From Deltaproteobacteria bacterium (GTDB taxonomy: Bacteria; Myxococcota; JADLHZ01), in the NCBI GenBank assembly GCA_020848545.1, contig JADLHZ010000151.1, forward strand, positions 62,001 through 126,000: 64,000 nucleotides of DNA. Reading direction: 5' to 3'. This document shows positions 22,587 to 31,492 of the stretch, in pieces; position 1 is the first letter of the stretch; each line of letters begins with the position of its first letter. The translations under genes and the position numbers were made by a program. The notes beneath the pieces are model-generated. The model made no database searches. It was not told the origin of the DNA and saw only the letters and a list, made by a program, of their open reading frames with translations.

Positions 22587-24032
22587 ATGCTCATCGCGCT
22601 CTTCGTCCTCGCGGCCATGGATCCTGTCTACGCGGAGATCAAGAAGCAGCACGCCCAAAACATTGAGCGCCTGCAGCAATGGATCGCGCTGCCGAGCATC
22701 GCCGCCGAGAACCTCGCGAGCGAAGAAGGCGCCACGAAGATGATGGCGCTGTTGAAGGAGGCCGGGTTTCAACGCGTCGAGCGCGTGGCGACCGACGGCA
22801 AGCCCGGGGTGTTCGCGACGCTCGACGCCGGCGCCAAGAAGTCGCTCGGCCTCTACTTCATGTACGACGTAAAGCAGTACGACCCGAAGGAGTGGTCGTC
22901 GCCGCCGCTCGCCGCCGCGATCGTCGACAAGCCGGGCATGGGCAAGATCATGATCGGCCGCGGCACCGTGAACCAGAAGGGACCGCAAGCGGCGTTCCTC
23001 GCGGCGCTGCTGGCGTTCAAAGCGGCAGGCCAGAAGCTGCCGGTGAACCTCGTGCTCGTCGCCGAGGGCGAGGAAGAGATCGGCTCGCCGCACTTTCATC
23101 AAATCGTGAAGAAGCCCGAGGTGCAGCAGGCGCTGAGCAAGACGATCGGCGTGTTCATGCCGTCAGCGGCGCAGGCGCTCGACGGCGAGGTCGTCGTGTC
23201 GCTAGGGGCCAAGGGCGTCGTCGAGCTCGAGCTCGTCGCGAGCGGCGAGAAGTGGGGCCGCGGGCCGCAGAAAGACGTGCACTCTGGGCAGCGCGCGCGC
23301 ATCGACAGCCCGGCGTTTCACTTGGTGCAAGCGCTCGCGACGCTGGTGAACAAGGACGGCGATCCCGCGATCGACGGCTTCGCCGACGCCGCCCGCGCGC
23401 TCACGGCCGACGAGAACGCCATGATCGAGAGCGCCGCGAAGCGTTCGAGCGAAGCCGACGCGAAGAAGACCTTCAGCGTGACGAAGTGGGCGCACGACGT
23501 GTCGTGGAAGGAGTCGCTCGTGATGCTCGCGGCGCGCCCGACGGTGAACATCGAAGGCCTCGTAGGCGGCTACACCGGTCCCGGCGGCAAGACCGTGCTG
23601 CCGAACCGCGCCGTCGCCAAGATCGATCTGCGCCTCGTGCCGAACATGCGCTTCGACGCCGCCGTCCTTGCGCTGCGAGCCCACCTGAAAAAGCGAGGGT
23701 TCGGCGACATCGAGGTGAACGTGAGCGGCGGCTATGATCCCACCGAGACGAAGAAGGACGCGTGGCTCGTGCGCGCGCAACAGAAGACCTACGCGAGCTA
23801 CGGAATCGAAGCGCCGTTCTGGGTGCGCAACGCCGGATCGTATCCCGGCTTCGTCTTCACGAACCCGCCGTTGTCCTTGCCGGCCGGGCACTTCGGCCTG
23901 GGGCACGGCGGCGGGGCGCATGCGCCGGACGAGTACATATTAATAGAGAGCGCCACACCTAAGCTCAAAGGCTATGACGACGCGATCCGCTCCTTCGCCG
24001 ACTATTTAGTCACCCTTGCCGAGGGTTCCTGA
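22587..24032 (+). CDS. M20-family metallopeptidase-like protein with altered metal ligands
   Basis: A 481-aa protein of M20 peptidase/dipeptidase layout. The start LIALFVLAAMDPVYA could be a signal peptide, so export is possible. The family's HxDV motif reads FMYDVKQYD: the zinc-binding His is Met92 while the catalytic-support Asp94 is kept. The bridging-Asp motif GRGxxDxKG reads GRGTVNQKG, with Asn129. The EGEEEIGS glutamates (162-164 region) are intact and a C-terminal GHGGGAHAPDE region carries late histidines. It therefore lacks two standard metal ligands; it may bind one metal, or have become non-catalytic. 89 bases separate it from the acyltransferase-P450 gene on the same strand. An internal ATG (Met11) would remove the signal-like part. 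Confidence 0.82.
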   Translation: MLIALFVLAAMDPVYAEIKKQHAQNIERLQQWIALPSIAAENLASEEGATKMMALLKEAGFQRVERVATDGKPGVFATLDAGAKKSLGLYFMYDVKQYDPKEWSSPPLAAAIVDKPGMGKIMIGRGTVNQKGPQAAFLAALLAFKAAGQKLPVNLVLVAEGEEEIGSPHFHQIVKKPEVQQALSKTIGVFMPSAAQALDGEVVVSLGAKGVVELELVASGEKWGRGPQKDVHSGQRARIDSPAFHLVQALATLVNKDGDPAIDGFADAARALTADENAMIESAAKRSSEADAKKTFSVTKWAHDVSWKESLVMLAARPTVNIEGLVGGYTGPGGKTVLPNRAVAKIDLRLVPNMRFDAAVLALRAHLKKRGFGDIEVNVSGGYDPTETKKDAWLVRAQQKTYASYGIEAPFWVRNAGSYPGFVFTNPPLSLPAGHFGLGHGGGAHAPDEYILIESATPKLKGYDDAIRSFADYLVTLAEGS

Positions 24033-24121: not shown

Positions 24122-26914
24122 ATGAGGCTCGGTGCCCTGCCGGAGCGCATGACGGAGTTCATGGCGCTCCTCGACGATCCACGCGCCCCGCTCGTGATGC
24201 ACTTTCACGTGCGCTGGCAGGCGGATGCGCTTTTCTCGCTCGACGCCCTGCGCGCGGCGACGCGGCGGCTCTTCGAGAAGCACCCGCGCCTCACGGAGCG
24301 CTTCGCGCTCGACCGCGCCTGCTGGGAGCACGCCTCTGACCTCGACGCGCTCGTCGATCGCGTGTGGGAAGCGAATGGCGCATCGCTCGCGGAGTTTCGC
24401 GCATGCAAGATCGCCTTCGATCGCGCCCCGCTCTTTCGCCTGCGCGCAGACGGCGACGGTCTCTCGCTGGCGATGCACCACGTGCTCGCTGACGGAAAAT
24501 CCGGCGCGCACTTTCTCGGGCTCCTGCTCGCCGAGCTCACCAGCGAAGCGCTGCCGCAGCTGCGCGTGCGCGAGCGACCGGAAGCGAAGCTGACCTGGAA
24601 GCAGCTCTTCTTCGCGATCGTCGAGTGCTTCACGCGCGTCTTCGATCTCTTGTTTCGACCGCCGGTGATGCTCGGGCCCGTGACCTACGCAGGCGCCGGC
24701 GAGAGCTTCACCGCGCGCGTCGTTCCGAAGGGGGAGCTCGACGCGATGAACGCAGCGCTCAAGTCCGCGCACCCGGGCGCCACCTTGAACGAAGCGCTCT
24801 TGGCCGCGGTGCACCTGAGCGCGGCAGATCTTCTCGCCGAGCAGAAGGCGCGCGGCGTGGTGCACGGCGGCAGCGGGCGCATCTCGGTCATGATGCCGCT
24901 CGACTTGCGCCAAGCGTTGGGCCGCGCCGAGCCCTTTCACAACTTCTCGACGACCTTCTCGGTGACGAGCGCGCCGCGCCATCGCCGCCATGCGCACGCG
25001 TTGCTCCAGCACGTCCACGCGCAGGTCGATCGCGCGCGGCGCCGGCTCGCGGGGTTCGGACCCTTCTTGCTCTTCTCGCTCGCGCGCAGGCTCGGCGCCG
25101 TCGCCAAGGACCGCGCGCACCGTTCGCGACACGGCGCGCCGAAGCGGCTGACCGGCGGCGACCCGAAGTTTTGGCGCCAGCTCGACACCGTGATCTTCAC
25201 CTACCTCGGCAAGCTGCGTTTTCCGGCGGCGCTCGACCAGAAGGTGGACGGCATCGAGGGCTACGCGCCGGTGCTGCCGCCGTGCGGCGTGGCGATCGAC
25301 GCGGCGACGACGCAGCAAGGCCTGTGCTTCTGGCTGCACGCGAGCGACGCGACGCTGTCGCCAAAAGACGCCGAGCGCTTCTGCGATCTCGTGGTCGCCC
25401 ACACGCGAGCGATCTTGCAGCCGGCGGTCGCGGTGGCCGGGAGCCCTTCGCGCTTTGCCACGACGCGCGCGTTCTTTCGTGATCCCTTGGCGTTGCTCGG
25501 TCTTTGCCGCGACAAAGGTGACTTCGTGCGCTTGAACGTGCTTGGCCCGAAGCAATACGTCGCCAGCCACCCGGCGCTGATCGAAGAGATCTTGGTCGAC
25601 AAGGGCCGCGTGTTTCGCAAGGACCAGGCGCTGCGCATGCTCGCGCGCGTGCTCGGCGAGGGCTTGCTCACGAGCGACGGCACGTTTTGGGCGCAGCAAA
25701 GGAAGCTCTTGCTGCCGGCGTTCCACCCCTCGCGCATGGCCGGCTACGCGGCGCAGATGGTCGCCGCGAGCGATCGCTTGGCCAGCACCTGGAAGCCCTT
25801 CGAGCAGAAGGACGTTTACAAAGAGATGCTCGCGCTGACGATCGACATCGTCGGCCGCACGCTCTTTGGCGCCGAAGAGGCGGAGGACGCCGAGGAAGTC
25901 GGCGGCGCGCTCGACGCCGTGATCCAACGCTTGAGCGATCCGCTCTACGTGATGGCGCCGTGGGCGGTGCACCTCGGCCTGCCGAGCGGGCGCCGCTTCG
26001 TCCGCGCGCTGAAGACGCTCGACGCGCTCGTCGCTCGCCTCATCGCGCGCCGCCGCACGCGCCCGCTCGACGAAGGCGATCTCTTGGGCCTGATGATCGG
26101 CGCCGTCGATCGCGGCGCGATGACAAAGGAGGAGCTGCGCAACGAAGCGCTCATCCTCTACGTCACGGGTCACGAGACGACGGCGATCGCGCTCGCCTAT
26201 ACGCTGTGGCTCGTCGCCCAGAGCCCTGCGGTCGAGCGGCGCTTGCAAGGCGAGCTCAGCAGCGTCCTCAACGGGCGCTTGCCCACGCTCGACGACGTGC
26301 GCGCGCTGCCGTTCACCGAGTGCGTCGTCAAAGAAGCGCTGCGCCTGTATCCGCCGGCCTGGTCGCTCGCGCGGCAAGCGACCGAGACGACCAAGATCGG
26401 CCCGCACACGATCGAGAAAGGCGCCGCGATCTGGATGGGCCCGTGGGCCGTGCAACACGACGCGCGCTTCTTCCCGGATCCCGAGCGCTTCTCGCCGGAG
26501 CGCTGGCTCGATCCGAAGATGGAGCAGCTGCCGAAGTGCGCGTACTTCCCCTTCGGCTCGGGCCCGCGCGTGTGCATCGGCCAAGCGTTCGCGAAGAGCG
26601 AGCTCGTGCTGGTGCTCGCGACGATCGCCCAGCGCTTCAAGCTGCGCTTCGCCGAGCAGGCGCCGCCGAAGATGCGCCCGAGCTTCACGCTGCGGCCGAT
26701 CTCTTCGTTCGCCGCGACCGTTGTCCCGCGCGATCCCGAGGCGATGCCGGCACAGGAGCCCGTGCCGCTCCCGCAGGCCACGCGCATCATGGCGCCGTCG
26801 AAGTGCCCATTTCGCCGCATGCTCGGCATCGGACAAGTGTCGGAGAGCACCGATGAGAGCGACAAAACTCCCGTCCAGACGCTGCCGCCGGCGCCCTCGA
26901 TAACGGAAGCATGA
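24122..26914 (+). CDS. Condensation-like acyltransferase fused to cytochrome P450
   Basis: A 930-aa two-enzyme fusion in one uninterrupted frame. Residues ~1-440 resemble the condensation/PapA/wax-synthase acyltransferase superfamily: the active-site motif MHHVLADGKSG (HHxxxDG, H119-G125) is complete and SVMMPLDLR resembles the family's second conserved segment. Residues ~450-890 are a complete P450: C-helix WAQQRK, I-helix VTGHETTAIA, K-helix EALRLYPP, and heme loop FPFGSGPRVCIG with Cys at about 818. No TM anchor and no fused reductase, so electrons must come from elsewhere. I infer that an acyl group is transferred and the acyl or its acceptor hydroxylated. Its stop overlaps the next start (ATGA) of the GT-desaturase fusion, so the two are coupled. 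Confidence 0.88.
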   Translation: MRLGALPERMTEFMALLDDPRAPLVMHFHVRWQADALFSLDALRAATRRLFEKHPRLTERFALDRACWEHASDLDALVDRVWEANGASLAEFRACKIAFDRAPLFRLRADGDGLSLAMHHVLADGKSGAHFLGLLLAELTSEALPQLRVRERPEAKLTWKQLFFAIVECFTRVFDLLFRPPVMLGPVTYAGAGESFTARVVPKGELDAMNAALKSAHPGATLNEALLAAVHLSAADLLAEQKARGVVHGGSGRISVMMPLDLRQALGRAEPFHNFSTTFSVTSAPRHRRHAHALLQHVHAQVDRARRRLAGFGPFLLFSLARRLGAVAKDRAHRSRHGAPKRLTGGDPKFWRQLDTVIFTYLGKLRFPAALDQKVDGIEGYAPVLPPCGVAIDAATTQQGLCFWLHASDATLSPKDAERFCDLVVAHTRAILQPAVAVAGSPSRFATTRAFFRDPLALLGLCRDKGDFVRLNVLGPKQYVASHPALIEEILVDKGRVFRKDQALRMLARVLGEGLLTSDGTFWAQQRKLLLPAFHPSRMAGYAAQMVAASDRLASTWKPFEQKDVYKEMLALTIDIVGRTLFGAEEAEDAEEVGGALDAVIQRLSDPLYVMAPWAVHLGLPSGRRFVRALKTLDALVARLIARRRTRPLDEGDLLGLMIGAVDRGAMTKEELRNEALILYVTGHETTAIALAYTLWLVAQSPAVERRLQGELSSVLNGRLPTLDDVRALPFTECVVKEALRLYPPAWSLARQATETTKIGPHTIEKGAAIWMGPWAVQHDARFFPDPERFSPERWLDPKMEQLPKCAYFPFGSGPRVCIGQAFAKSELVLVLATIAQRFKLRFAEQAPPKMRPSFTLRPISSFAATVVPRDPEAMPAQEPVPLPQATRIMAPSKCPFRRMLGIGQVSESTDESDKTPVQTLPPAPSITEA

Positions 26915-29127
26915 TGACCACGGTGCTCATCACGCTCGCCGGCTTCGCGTTCGTCGCGCACGCCGGCATCTTCTTGCTCGGCATCGCGCTCGCGTGGCGG
27001 CAACACTCGAAGAAAGCGCCGCCGGCCCGCGCGCTGCCCGTGACGATCCTGAAGCCGCTCGCCGGCTTCGACGACGGCCTCGAGGACAACCTGCGCTCGT
27101 TCTTCGCGCTGCAGCACGCGGCGCCGTTCGAGCTCGTGTTCTCGATCGACGCCTCCGAGCGCACGGGTGACGCCGCGGCGCTCGCGCAGCGTCTGATCGC
27201 CGAGCATCCTGCGGTGAGCGCCCGCTTCGTCCTCTCAGCGCGCGACGCTGGCGACAACCCGAAGATCGCGAACTTACTCGCCGGCGCCGCCGTCGCGCGT
27301 CACGATTTCGTGCTCGTGAGCGACGCCAACGTGCGCGTCGCGCCGGACTATCTGACGCGGCTCACCTCGCACTACTCGGACGACGTCGGCGTCGTGTGCA
27401 GCTGCATCGTCGGCAAGGGCGCGGAGAGCTTCGGCGCGGCAGTCGACGGGCTCGGCCTCAACACCTTCTACACGCGTGGCATGTTCCTCTCGATGCTCGG
27501 CGGCGAACCGGCCGTGCCGGGCAAAGGGATGCTCTTCTCCACGCGCGCGGCCGAGCGCTTCGGCGGTCTGCGATCGCTCTTGCGTTACTTCGCCGAGGAC
27601 TACCTCTTCGGCAAGCGCATGCTGGGCCTCGGCCTGCGCATCGTCGCGACCGAAGAGGGCCTCGTGCAGCACATGGGGCGGTCGAGCGTGCTCGACTACA
27701 TGCGCCGGCAAATCCGCTGGAGCCAGATTCGCCGGCTCTACGGCGGCGCCGCGTACGCGTTCGAGCTGTTGACGATGAACGCGCTCGCTCCGGCGGTGCT
27801 CGGCGGCGTCGCGGCGGCGTGGCTCTTCGGCTTCTCGGCCGTCTCGTTCGCGGCGGCGTGGCTCGCGTTCGAGCTCCTCTGCGATCTCGCGCTTACGCTG
27901 AAGGTCGGCGGCGACGTGAGCGCCCGCTTCCCCCTCTATTGGCTCGCGCGCGAAGCCCTCGCGCTTCCGATCTGGATCGCCACCTACGCGTCACGGCACA
28001 TCGTCTGGCGTGGCAAGAGACTGCCCTTCGATCGCGAAGGCCGCGTCACCGAGCCGGTCGAGATGTTCACGAAGACGAAGAAGGGCGAGCCGCACTACGA
28101 GCGCCGCCGCTTCATCATGAAGAAGTATCCGCAGATCCGTTCGTTGATGGGCCACGACACGCGCACGGCGTGGGTGACCATCGCCGTCGTGATCCTGCAG
28201 CTCGCGCTCGCGTGGGGCTTCGCGCTGCTCGCCGCGCAAGGGAGCGTCTTCGCGCATCCGATCGCCATGGTCGTCTACGCCTACGCGTTCGGCGCGATCC
28301 TGACGCACTGGCTGAGCATGACCATCCACGAGACCTCGCACGATCTCGCCTTCAAATCGCACCGCGCGAACCAGGCGCTGGCGTTGCTCGCCAACATTCC
28401 GATGCTCGTGCCGATCGCGATGACCTTCCATCGCTATCACTTGGGCCACCACGCGCTGCTCGGCGTCGACAAAGAGGACACCGACCTGCCGACGCGGTGG
28501 GAAGCGCGCGTGATCCGCCGCTCGACCGTGCTGAAGTTTCTGTGGCTCTCGCTCTACTTCTTCGTCTACTCGCTGCGCGGGCTCACCTTCGCCAAGAAGC
28601 CGAACCGCGCCGAGTGGCTGAACATCGTGTTCAGCTTGACGATGACTGCTTTGATCGTGAAGACGCTCGGCTGGACGGCGTTCGCGTACCTCGCGTGGAG
28701 CATGTTCTTCGCGCACAGCCTGCACCCGGTCGCGGCGCACTTCATCCACGAGCACTACATCTTCTCGGCGCCGCAGGAGACGTACTCGTACTACGGCGTG
28801 TTGAACCGGGTGACCTTCAACGTCGGCTATCACGTGGAGCACCACGACTTCATGAACGTGCCGGGGTGGAAGCTGCCGGCGCTCCACGCGATGGCGGGCA
28901 CCGAGTACTCGCGCCTCGTGTCGCACAAGTCGTGGACGCTCGTCCTGCTCGAGTTCATCTTCTGCCCGCGGATCGGCGTCGACAGCCGCGTCGTGCGCAG
29001 CCGCGCGGCGTTTCAGCGCACGCGCACGCAGGCTCACAAGGAGAGCAACGAGCGCGAGCATCGCTGGAAGAAGCCGGCGCACGAGAATGACCTCGGCGAG
29101 ATCACCGGCGAGGTGCTCCTATGGTGA
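26911..29127 (+). CDS. Ceramide-glucosyltransferase-like GT fused to dihydroceramide delta-4-desaturase
   Basis: A 738-aa membrane protein. Residues ~1-385 are a GT-A glycosyltransferase of GT21/HpnI type: N-terminal TM, ILKPLAGFDDGLEDNL, DxD-like SDANVRV, EDYLFGK, and the (Q/R)xxRW motif in RRQIRWSQIRR. Residues ~395-738 match sphingolipid delta-4 desaturases (DEGS/DES1) nearly end to end: KKYPQIRSLMGHDTRTAW, box 1 HETSHD, box 2 HRYHLGHH, ETYSYYG, and box 3 FNVGYHVEHHDFMNVPGWKL. All three His boxes and both GT active-site regions are intact. I infer that one polypeptide both desaturates the sphingoid base and adds a sugar to the ceramide at the inner membrane. Overlaps both neighbours (4 and 7 bases). 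Confidence 0.92.
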   Translation: MMTTVLITLAGFAFVAHAGIFLLGIALAWRQHSKKAPPARALPVTILKPLAGFDDGLEDNLRSFFALQHAAPFELVFSIDASERTGDAAALAQRLIAEHPAVSARFVLSARDAGDNPKIANLLAGAAVARHDFVLVSDANVRVAPDYLTRLTSHYSDDVGVVCSCIVGKGAESFGAAVDGLGLNTFYTRGMFLSMLGGEPAVPGKGMLFSTRAAERFGGLRSLLRYFAEDYLFGKRMLGLGLRIVATEEGLVQHMGRSSVLDYMRRQIRWSQIRRLYGGAAYAFELLTMNALAPAVLGGVAAAWLFGFSAVSFAAAWLAFELLCDLALTLKVGGDVSARFPLYWLAREALALPIWIATYASRHIVWRGKRLPFDREGRVTEPVEMFTKTKKGEPHYERRRFIMKKYPQIRSLMGHDTRTAWVTIAVVILQLALAWGFALLAAQGSVFAHPIAMVVYAYAFGAILTHWLSMTIHETSHDLAFKSHRANQALALLANIPMLVPIAMTFHRYHLGHHALLGVDKEDTDLPTRWEARVIRRSTVLKFLWLSLYFFVYSLRGLTFAKKPNRAEWLNIVFSLTMTALIVKTLGWTAFAYLAWSMFFAHSLHPVAAHFIHEHYIFSAPQETYSYYGVLNRVTFNVGYHVEHHDFMNVPGWKLPALHAMAGTEYSRLVSHKSWTLVLLEFIFCPRIGVDSRVVRSRAAFQRTRTQAHKESNEREHRWKKPAHENDLGEITGEVLLW

Positions 29128-30431
29128 CGCACGCGCTTGCGGCCCGCGCTGCCCCGTCAACGAAGGCGCATCGCTTGTCCCTGCCCGGCGCGATCCGCTT
29201 GGGGAACCACATCGCCGTCGACGCCGCCGAGGCGATCCGCCAGGTGTGCGATCGGCACGGCGAAGTGGTGCGGGTGCGCATGCCGCGGCACACGCTCTAC
29301 CTGACGAGCAGCGACGTCGCCATCCAGCACGTGTTGAAGACGCGGCAAGCGAACTACGAGAAAGCGACCTTGCGCGGGGCCTTCGCCTCCTTGTTCGGCG
29401 ACGGCCTCATCATCTCGGACGGGCCGCGCTGGCTCGCCGATCGCCGCCTGATGCAGCCCTTCTTCGGCAAGACGAGCATGACCAAGCTGAAGGAAGACAT
29501 CGGCGCGTCGATCGCCGAAGAGGTGCGGGCGTTCGGTGCCGGCAGCGTGAACGTTCAGGCCGCCGCCGATCGCGCGAGCCTCGTCACCTTCGCGCGGACG
29601 ATCTTCGGCGTCGAGATCGGCCCGCACGTCGCCGCGCTGCGCCGCCTGTTCGCCGCCGGCGTGCACGCGGTCTACGAGCGCGACGGCGCGTTGATCGACT
29701 GGGACCGCTGGTTCACGACGAAGAGGCAGGAACGCTTCCTCGGCGATCGCGCCGAGCTCTACGCGATCGTCGACGCTTTGGTGCGCGATCACACGCCGAA
29801 CGGCACCATGTTCGACGCGCTCATCGACGCGGCGCGCGCGATGCCGAACGGTGCGCAATGGCTGCGCGACCACGTGATCACCATGCTCATCGCTGGCCAC
29901 GAGACGGTCGCCGCTACGCTCGTTTGGGGCATGATGCTGCTCGCCGCCGCTCCGCGCGCGCAAGCCGAGCTGCGCCTCGGGATCGATCACGGCGACGACA
30001 GCTATCTGAAGCAGGTGCTCTTCGAGACGATGCGCCTCTACCCGGCCGTGTGGTGCGTCAGCGGCCGGCGCGCCCTCGAGGCCGACGAGATCGCCGGCGT
30101 TCCGATCGCCGCCGGCGAGATGGTCGTGCCGTGCATCTACGCCATGCATCGCAACGCACGCTTGTGGTCGCAGCCCGACGCGTTCTTGCCCGAGCGCTTC
30201 GCCCACGCGCAAGCGAGCAAGCGCCCGAGCTACCTGCCCTTCGGCGCCGGCGCCCGCGTCTGCATCGGCGAGCACATGGCGATGATCATGCTCGAAGCGG
30301 CGTTGAAGGAGCTCATCGCGCGCTACGAGATCGCGCCGATCGACCGGTCGATGCTCCGTGAAGTCGGCCACGACGCGGCGCTCACTTTGCGGCCGAAGAC
30401 TGAGCCCTTCCTCACCCTGACCACGCGCTGA
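29121..30431 (+). CDS. Cytochrome P450
   Basis: A 436-aa soluble bacterial P450. Visible are the C-helix DGPRWLADRRLM, the I-helix MLIAGHETVAATLV with the oxygen-activating Thr replaced by Val at the second position (GHETVA), the K-helix ETMRLYPAVW (ExxR), and the heme loop LPFGAGARVCIGE with Cys at about 381. No reductase domain. The start overlaps the GT-desaturase stop by 7 bases, making it the third gene of the inferred sphingolipid operon; a fatty-acyl or sphingoid-base hydroxylase is a reasonable guess, but the substrate is not visible. It is shorter than, and clearly distinct from, the P450 half of the 24122 gene. Confidence 0.92.
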   Translation: MVTHALAARAAPSTKAHRLSLPGAIRLGNHIAVDAAEAIRQVCDRHGEVVRVRMPRHTLYLTSSDVAIQHVLKTRQANYEKATLRGAFASLFGDGLIISDGPRWLADRRLMQPFFGKTSMTKLKEDIGASIAEEVRAFGAGSVNVQAAADRASLVTFARTIFGVEIGPHVAALRRLFAAGVHAVYERDGALIDWDRWFTTKRQERFLGDRAELYAIVDALVRDHTPNGTMFDALIDAARAMPNGAQWLRDHVITMLIAGHETVAATLVWGMMLLAAAPRAQAELRLGIDHGDDSYLKQVLFETMRLYPAVWCVSGRRALEADEIAGVPIAAGEMVVPCIYAMHRNARLWSQPDAFLPERFAHAQASKRPSYLPFGAGARVCIGEHMAMIMLEAALKELIARYEIAPIDRSMLREVGHDAALTLRPKTEPFLTLTTR

Positions 30432-30508: not shown

Positions 30509-31492
30509 GTGAAGACGCTCACCTACTCCGGCGGCCACAATTGGAACTATCTCGGCAAGTACTACGGGATCGATCCGACGGTGCTCGCCGCGTACAACGG
30601 TCAGGCCTTTGCCGATCTCAACGCGCCCGTAGCGGCGAAGTTCGTGTTGCGCGTGCCGAACGCTGCCGAGCTCACCGCGTTCTACCCGCAATATCGCAAG
30701 ATCTTCATGACCGCCCACGAGAGCTTCGGCCTCGCTCTGCGCCCGCCGACGTTGACGAACGCGCCCCAGGTGCTGAAGACGCCGCTCCTGCAGGGCTCCG
30801 GCAACATGGTCATCGTCAACGCCGCCCGGATGCGCCGCTTCAGCCACACCGGCGACAATTACGGCGTGTTCGCGCGCCTGCGCACGCCAAATCCGAGGCA
30901 CGAAGGCCGCTTCCTCGGCCCGGACGTCAACGCGCTGAGCTTCACCGAGGGTTGGTGGAAGTGCAACGTGCTCGTCGGCGACGTGCTCTACGCCGCGGGC
31001 TACGATTGGCCGATGAGCGAGTTCAAGCGCTACCTGCAGCCGAACGGCCTGCTCCGCTACATGAGCGTACCGAACACTTACGCGAAGCCGGTGTGGGTGG
31101 CGCAGCGCTTCTCGGGCGGCGGCCGGCCGCAGCAGAACGTGCCCTACGTCCCACCGACGGCGCGCGATCTCAGCGATGTGCAGCCAGGCGACGTCATGTT
31201 GCTGCACGGCGGCGACGACGACACCGGACACGCGGCCATCGTCACGAGCACGGTGCGCGTCGACGAGAAGGGCCGCGTGCTCGTGCGCGTCGTCGATATC
31301 TACGGCGAGGATTGGTACGACGTCACCGAGCACAAGGTGAAGGCGATCGTGCGACCGACGAAGAAGCTTGGGTACATGCCGGCCGAGAGCGTGGGAGGGG
31401 ATCCGAACTCGACGAAGCTGCTCGAAGGCGACGAACAGATCGACGACACCCCGGTCGGCGAGCCCTTGTACGCCGCGTGGCTAGATCCGTAA
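30509..31492 (+). CDS. LysM-like protein with CHAP/NlpC-like C-terminal region
   Basis: A 327-aa protein starting at GTG 30509. The first ~50 residues look like a LysM module (NWNYLGKYYGIDPTVLAAYN then AAKFVLRVPN), suggesting peptidoglycan or chitin binding, although no signal peptide precedes it. The C-terminal half contains DLSDVQPGDVMLLHGGDDDT followed by GHAAIVTSTV, which resembles the D-x-x-PGD...GH(A/V)A pattern of CHAP or NlpC/P60 domains. The cysteine nucleophile is not obvious (one candidate in WWKCNVLVGDVLYAAGYDW), so catalysis is uncertain. It lies 77 bases after the P450 and overlaps the convergent MYXO-CTERM gene by 12 bases. Confidence 0.7.
   Translation: MKTLTYSGGHNWNYLGKYYGIDPTVLAAYNGQAFADLNAPVAAKFVLRVPNAAELTAFYPQYRKIFMTAHESFGLALRPPTLTNAPQVLKTPLLQGSGNMVIVNAARMRRFSHTGDNYGVFARLRTPNPRHEGRFLGPDVNALSFTEGWWKCNVLVGDVLYAAGYDWPMSEFKRYLQPNGLLRYMSVPNTYAKPVWVAQRFSGGGRPQQNVPYVPPTARDLSDVQPGDVMLLHGGDDDTGHAAIVTSTVRVDEKGRVLVRVVDIYGEDWYDVTEHKVKAIVRPTKKLGYMPAESVGGDPNSTKLLEGDEQIDDTPVGEPLYAAWLDP

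Follow-up and report, generated by a model that had tools for sequence, protein, structure and literature searches.

The present study describes three consecutive genes that probably form a unit, coupled in translation, for the tailoring of a lipid of the ceramide type. The backbone of this lipid is predicted to come from a locus on a separate contig, C65, of the same genome. The genes lie in a stretch of 64,000 nucleotides (the window, G000:C151:62001-126000) of a Myxococcota assembly, GCA_020848545.1, which comprises 7.99 Mb in 163 contigs. All three are on one strand, each overlaps the next, and two encode fusion proteins, with the following features.

24122-26914, + strand: gene 1, a fusion of an HHxxxDG acyltransferase and a cytochrome P450, 930 aa (open reading frame (ORF), Pfam, motif and hidden Markov model (HMM))
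24122-25471, + strand: acyltransferase half of gene 1, condensation/PapA-type superfamily, residues 1-450 (motif and HMM)
24476-24496, + strand: HHVLADG, the HHxxxDG motif of gene 1, residues 119-125 (motif)
25517-26683, + strand: P450 domain of gene 1, residues 466-854, with TGHET, EALR and FGSGPRVCIG (PF00067, 261 bits; motifs)
26911-26914, + strand: overlap of genes 1 and 2, exactly 4 bases (ATGA)
26911-29127, + strand: gene 2, a fusion of a GT21 glycosyltransferase and a sphingolipid Delta4-desaturase-type protein, 738 aa (ORF, Pfam)
26938-28026, + strand: GT21 domain of gene 2, residues 10-372, with SIDAS, SDAN, AEDY and RQIRW (phmmer, Glyco_transf_21, motifs)
28075-28161, + strand: Lipid_DES, the N-terminal signature of sphingolipid Delta4-desaturases, residues 389-417 (PF08557, 44 bits, cut-off 23)
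28264-28896, + strand: catalytic part of the membrane desaturase, residues 452-662, with HETSH, HLGHH and HVEHH (PF00487 FA_desaturase; alignment with 18 relatives; motifs)
29121-29127, + strand: overlap of genes 2 and 3, exactly 7 bases
29121-30431, + strand: gene 3, a cytochrome P450, 436 aa (Pfam, motifs)

This layout had been proposed in a sequence-only reading of the window, and its ORFs, overlaps and domain assignments were confirmed, the latter by Pfam, motifs and the acyltransferase HMM; the Pfam domains of genes 1 and 2 all scored higher than their cut-offs. A codon-usage gene caller trained here returned the same genes 1 and 2 and started gene 3 at 29175, so that the size of the second overlap depends on the start chosen. 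The GC content of the unit (0.66-0.69) is comparable to that of the remainder of the window.

Regarding gene 2, the Pfam Glyco_transf_21 match spans residues 100-271, and phmmer aligned residues 10-372 with a ceramide glucosyltransferase (PDB 26qf, which we take to be human UGCG) at 1.3e-36. The GT21 family is characterized by the motif set D, D, ED and (Q/R)xxRW, all of which are intact in gene 2, the last in the form RxxRW. The glycosyltransferase match stops at residue 372 and the desaturase signature begins at residue 389, which leaves a short linker, and hydrophobic segments occur in both halves. The desaturase half carries the Lipid_DES motif together with three histidine boxes, as is expected of a sphingolipid Delta4-desaturase (DES), and this function, desaturation of dihydroceramide at C4, is predicted for it. 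The signature was found in 14 of 19 aligned desaturases, the window's own included, while those of L037, L054 and L058 lacked the stretch in the gene calls used. Among the PDB sequences, none matched the desaturase part at E values up to 1. A joint alignment for gene 2 was not used, as its glycosyltransferase rows shared 15-19% identity and were apparently misplaced.

The fusion was compared with 195 Myxococcota genomes, including its own, the others of which share only the phylum with the source. Among the matches listed, gene 2 was aligned end to end by itself alone, and GT21 and DES were separate elsewhere. A pattern scan of the genome contig collection, which was sensitive to close relatives only, returned 7 DES relatives and no fusion with a glycosyltransferase. 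As side observations, the DES proteins of L056/L131, L057/L133 and L132, which are from Archangium-labelled and other Myxococcota assemblies, are fused C-terminally to another domain, and that of L056, the one scanned, was ferritin-like or AurF-like.

The sequence-only reading stated that serine palmitoyltransferase (SPT) was not in the window, which is right as far as we looked, because both oxoamine synthases found in the genome are on other contigs. That on C147 was rejected as an SPT since it is an ordinary KBL. The other forms the C-terminus of a 1816-residue KS-ACP-KR-DH polyketide synthase (PKS) on C65 (L035:6956-12406, - strand), the motifs of which are intact, and the same locus contains a YghO-type ceramide synthase homologue, an acyl-AMP ligase, an acyl carrier protein (ACP) and an epimerase. 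The sphingolipid genes of Escherichia coli BL21, with roles as given in PMC9386255, served as queries. The GNAT gene on C65 matched BL21 YghO (35.5% over 379 of 380 aa, 1e-83), as expected of a YghO/aca-type protein, the acyl-AMP ligase matched AasR (34.7%, 4e-96), and the SPT-like domain matched Spt (34.5%, 2e-59). The epimerase L035_7 aligned weakly with the ketone reductase epi/CerR (approximately 155 aa, 1e-9), which is matched better by a gene on contig C108 (6e-13). Moreover, the SPT-like domain retains the columns of His137, Ser242 and Arg366, taken as serine-binding residues from the SPT of S. multivorum (PMC3870968), whereas in the KBL structure 1fc4 the Ser242 column is occupied by Gly. 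A tree with long branches placed the C65 domain on the side of the SPTs at moderate support (93/91), and the NCBIfam models, none of which reached its cut-off, did not decide between BioF and SPT. Taken together, the source genome holds what looks, on sequence grounds, like an almost complete locus for ceramide synthesis. A genome devoid of SPT, which the sequence-only reading had named as grounds for its refutation, was not what the search showed. By Pfam, the C65 fusion has neither an enoylreductase nor an acyltransferase domain, and this architecture therefore predicts a 2-enoyl chain, such that a 4-ene sphingoid base would be made without a desaturase.

Close homologues of the C65 SPT-like domain (at least 415 bits), mostly in frames of more than 1800 aa, are present in 49 of the 195 genomes (e.g., L111, L116, L125 and L127), and the four scanned were KS-AT-KR-DH-oxoamine synthases without an enoylreductase. 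The neighbours at 21 PKS-fused SPT loci included an acyl-AMP ligase at 15, a CMAS-like methyltransferase at 9, an ACP at 8 and a YghO-type gene at 5, and the surroundings of 20 other genes for a PKS-fused SPT contained no DES, GT21 or matching P450. In a Planctomycetia-labelled assembly (G198:C932, the genome of L059), a YghO-type match (10-342) and an oxoamine-synthase match (402-1499) are adjacent and share one strand.

The N-terminal half of gene 1 is assigned to the condensation/PapA-type acyltransferases from its HHxxxDG motif and superfamily similarity, though residues 1-450 had no Pfam match at E<0.1. An HMM of six other acyltransferase, condensation or PapA-type proteins matched this half at E=1.4e-11 (best of 200 shuffles, E=1.6), a value that is flattering because five of the six were selected through weak similarity to the half itself; the sixth, L033_8, entered independently as the neighbour of a second desaturase described below. 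Elsewhere in the 195 genomes, this half had just five weak partial matches, three of which sit in frames of more than 3000 aa, and no match listed outside the source genome spanned the fusion with the P450. An AlphaFold model of the acyltransferase half from seven sequences was too poor to use (mean pLDDT 45.8).

The sequence-only reading allowed for N-acylation by this enzyme, which would make it a second ceramide synthase acting on the long-chain base within a ceramide-tailoring unit. Enzymes of the HHxxxDG/condensation type form amides as well as esters, and the acyltransferase shares its polypeptide with a P450 and is coupled to a glycosyltransferase and a desaturase, all of which would be compatible with such a role; however, N-acylation by the fused enzyme is not needed, and O-acylation is more likely, because the YghO-type homologue on C65 would cover this step. 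O-acylation is also the better fit because the fused P450 would generate hydroxyls, and we regard the second ceramide synthase as rather unlikely.

The I-helix (GxET), ExxR and heme-Cys motifs are intact in the P450s of both gene 1 and gene 3, the latter of which (177 bits by Pfam) carries AGHET, ETMR and FGAGARVCIG. Based on these domains, the following route may be proposed for the tailoring unit. The backbone would be made by the PKS-fused SPT-like enzyme of C65 and N-acylated by the YghO-type ceramide synthase. At C4 of the long-chain base, the fusion encoded by gene 2 would introduce a double bond (or a hydroxyl), and it would also place a sugar on the C1 hydroxyl, thereby coupling desaturation at C4 with glycosylation at C1. 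In gene 1, the P450 may hydroxylate a chain, the new hydroxyl of which would be esterified by the acyltransferase on the same polypeptide, and the P450 of gene 3 would add one more hydroxyl. The order of steps that had been read from the order of the genes was a guess. The product may tentatively be pictured as an unsaturated, hydroxylated, O-acylated glycosylceramide on a PKS-built sphingoid base, with each fusion performing two steps on one polypeptide, and as a bacterial counterpart of the skin acylceramides.

The Lipid_DES signature, the ceramide-glucosyltransferase match, the C65 locus and the lack of a hopene cyclase above cut-off in the source genome support the sphingolipid tailoring part of the sequence-only reading, in which N-acylation and the order of steps were not supported. 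Several observations nevertheless weigh against a ceramide-tailoring unit, the first of which is that a sigma-70 scan returned no promoter-like site for the putative operon. The GT21 family also includes hopanoid enzymes, and the acceptor is not fixed by sequence alone because the nearest other GT21 protein is equally close to the ceramide glucosyltransferase (141 bits, compared with 129 bits for gene 2). A hopanoid substrate would be in line with the match of the HpnI model (an NCBIfam equivalog) to the glycosyltransferase half; however, this match, at 192 bits, is below the cut-off of 310. Nine other GT21 proteins also scored below it (119-280 bits), most of those from relatives in the phylum coming closer (227-280 bits). 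The lone hopene-cyclase match in the source genome (237 bits, cut-off 431) is an oxidosqualene cyclase on C41 (L050:16852-18855, - strand; 590 bits to lanosterol synthase 1w6k). The hopanoid pathway was rejected on these grounds, and tailoring of a hopanoid by the unit appears highly improbable.

Contig C41, where a P450 and a gene of an epimerase family are also located, is likely to serve sterol synthesis. Since the genome has this cyclase, sterols are possible substrates of the P450s, and the unit might tailor a sterol or another isoprenoid lipid into a steryl glycoside or ester, for which the distant matches of the gene 3 P450 to cholesterol 24-hydroxylase CYP46A1 also speak. We consider this unlikely given the Lipid_DES signature, the GT21 domain and the location of the cyclase and the unit on different contigs.

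The comparison with other DES loci, the listing of which is not complete below about E=1e-31, such that weak DES genes may be missed, gave mixed results. The three-gene set with its fusions was not conserved, both fusions being found in the source genome alone; however, the combination of an acyltransferase, a desaturase and a P450 recurs once, in the same genome, where C108 carries an HHxxxDG acyltransferase, a gap of 14 bases, a DES (L033 9780-10811) and a P450 converging on the DES. A DES-P450 neighbour pair is also present in L053, and because of these two cases P450s like those of the unit occur at 2 of 38 other DES loci. Among the matches listed, a YghO-type homologue is present in 36 of 37 DES genomes (26.4 expected) versus 103 of the 158 others (Fisher p 3e-5) and, by genus, in 18 of 18 DES genera (p 1e-4), p-values that are too small because the genomes are related. 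DES and PKS-fused SPT did not co-occur beyond chance (8 genomes versus 9.3 expected), and no GT21 match was found at any of the 38 other DES loci. The desaturase may instead act on acyl chains in ordinary glycolipids or glycerolipids, with a non-sphingoid glycolipid as the product of the unit. This is consistent with the finding that none of the 38 DES loci compared, of up to 20 kb each, holds an Spt or YghO homologue, with the absence of a YghO match from the L053 genome, which has the DES-P450 pair, and with the varied neighbours of the DES relatives. The prevalence of Lipid_DES among the aligned desaturases, the ceramide synthase homologue in nearly all DES genomes and the fusion to a ceramide-glucosyltransferase-like enzyme argue against it, and we judge a non-sphingoid product to be as unlikely as a sterol.

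The unit is flanked by genes that were counted outside it. An M20 peptidase (22587-24032) lies 89 bases upstream, and a gene of 327 aa (30509-31492, + strand) that begins 77 bases downstream has no Pfam match and by eye appears LysM/amidase-like and cell-wall related.

Every domain of the tailoring unit belongs to a known family. The eukaryotic DEGS/DES proteins share the PF08557 N-terminal signature and an FA_desaturase domain with three histidine boxes, whereas the desaturase in the window, the activity of which is predicted, is bacterial and located on the C-terminal side of a GT21 domain. The glycosyltransferase aligns with the ceramide glucosyltransferase and keeps its motifs, but is fused to a desaturase, and its sequence does not distinguish ceramide from HpnI-type specificity. 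The ceramide pathway of Caulobacter and E. coli BL21 comprises spt, acpR, aasR, epi and aca/yghO, of which C65 has YghO, AasR and Spt homologues, an ACP and a weakly matching epimerase; its SPT-like domain differs in being the C-terminus of a PKS, and no counterpart of the tailoring unit was found in the 44 kb BL21 stretch compared. A source of the sphingoid base similar to that at C65, namely a PKS with an SPT-type alpha-oxoamine synthase, is described for the PKS-derived sphingolipids of Pseudomonas fluorescens MYb115 (PMC12134224), in which SgaA and SgaB are two separate genes rather than one polypeptide; the words "desaturase" and "cytochrome" are absent from the main text of that paper.

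Hydroxylation, acyl transfer, desaturation and glucosylation also make up the mammalian acylceramide pathway, in which acyl transfer is performed by other enzyme families. The likeness to the reactions predicted for the unit would be an analogy of reaction types, and no common origin is claimed. The titles and abstract openings of the literature searched, from which subscription journals were mostly missing, described no sphingolipid synthesis with a fusion of GT21 to a desaturase or of an acyltransferase to a P450. To judge from that search, both fusions, their coupling in one unit and the combination with a PKS-fused SPT are new.

In the literature compared here, work on bacterial sphingolipid genes has so far centred on SPT, ceramide synthase and the reductase. 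With a probable tailoring unit and a ceramide-type locus in one genome, the organism may be predicted to make a complex sphingolipid like those of eukaryotes, and this can be tested. If correct, the fusion of a DES-type desaturase with a ceramide-glucosyltransferase-like enzyme, next to a ceramide-type locus elsewhere in the same genome, would represent eukaryote-style tailoring in bacteria, which could be tested with a few expressed proteins, and the fusions themselves may hint at which steps go together.

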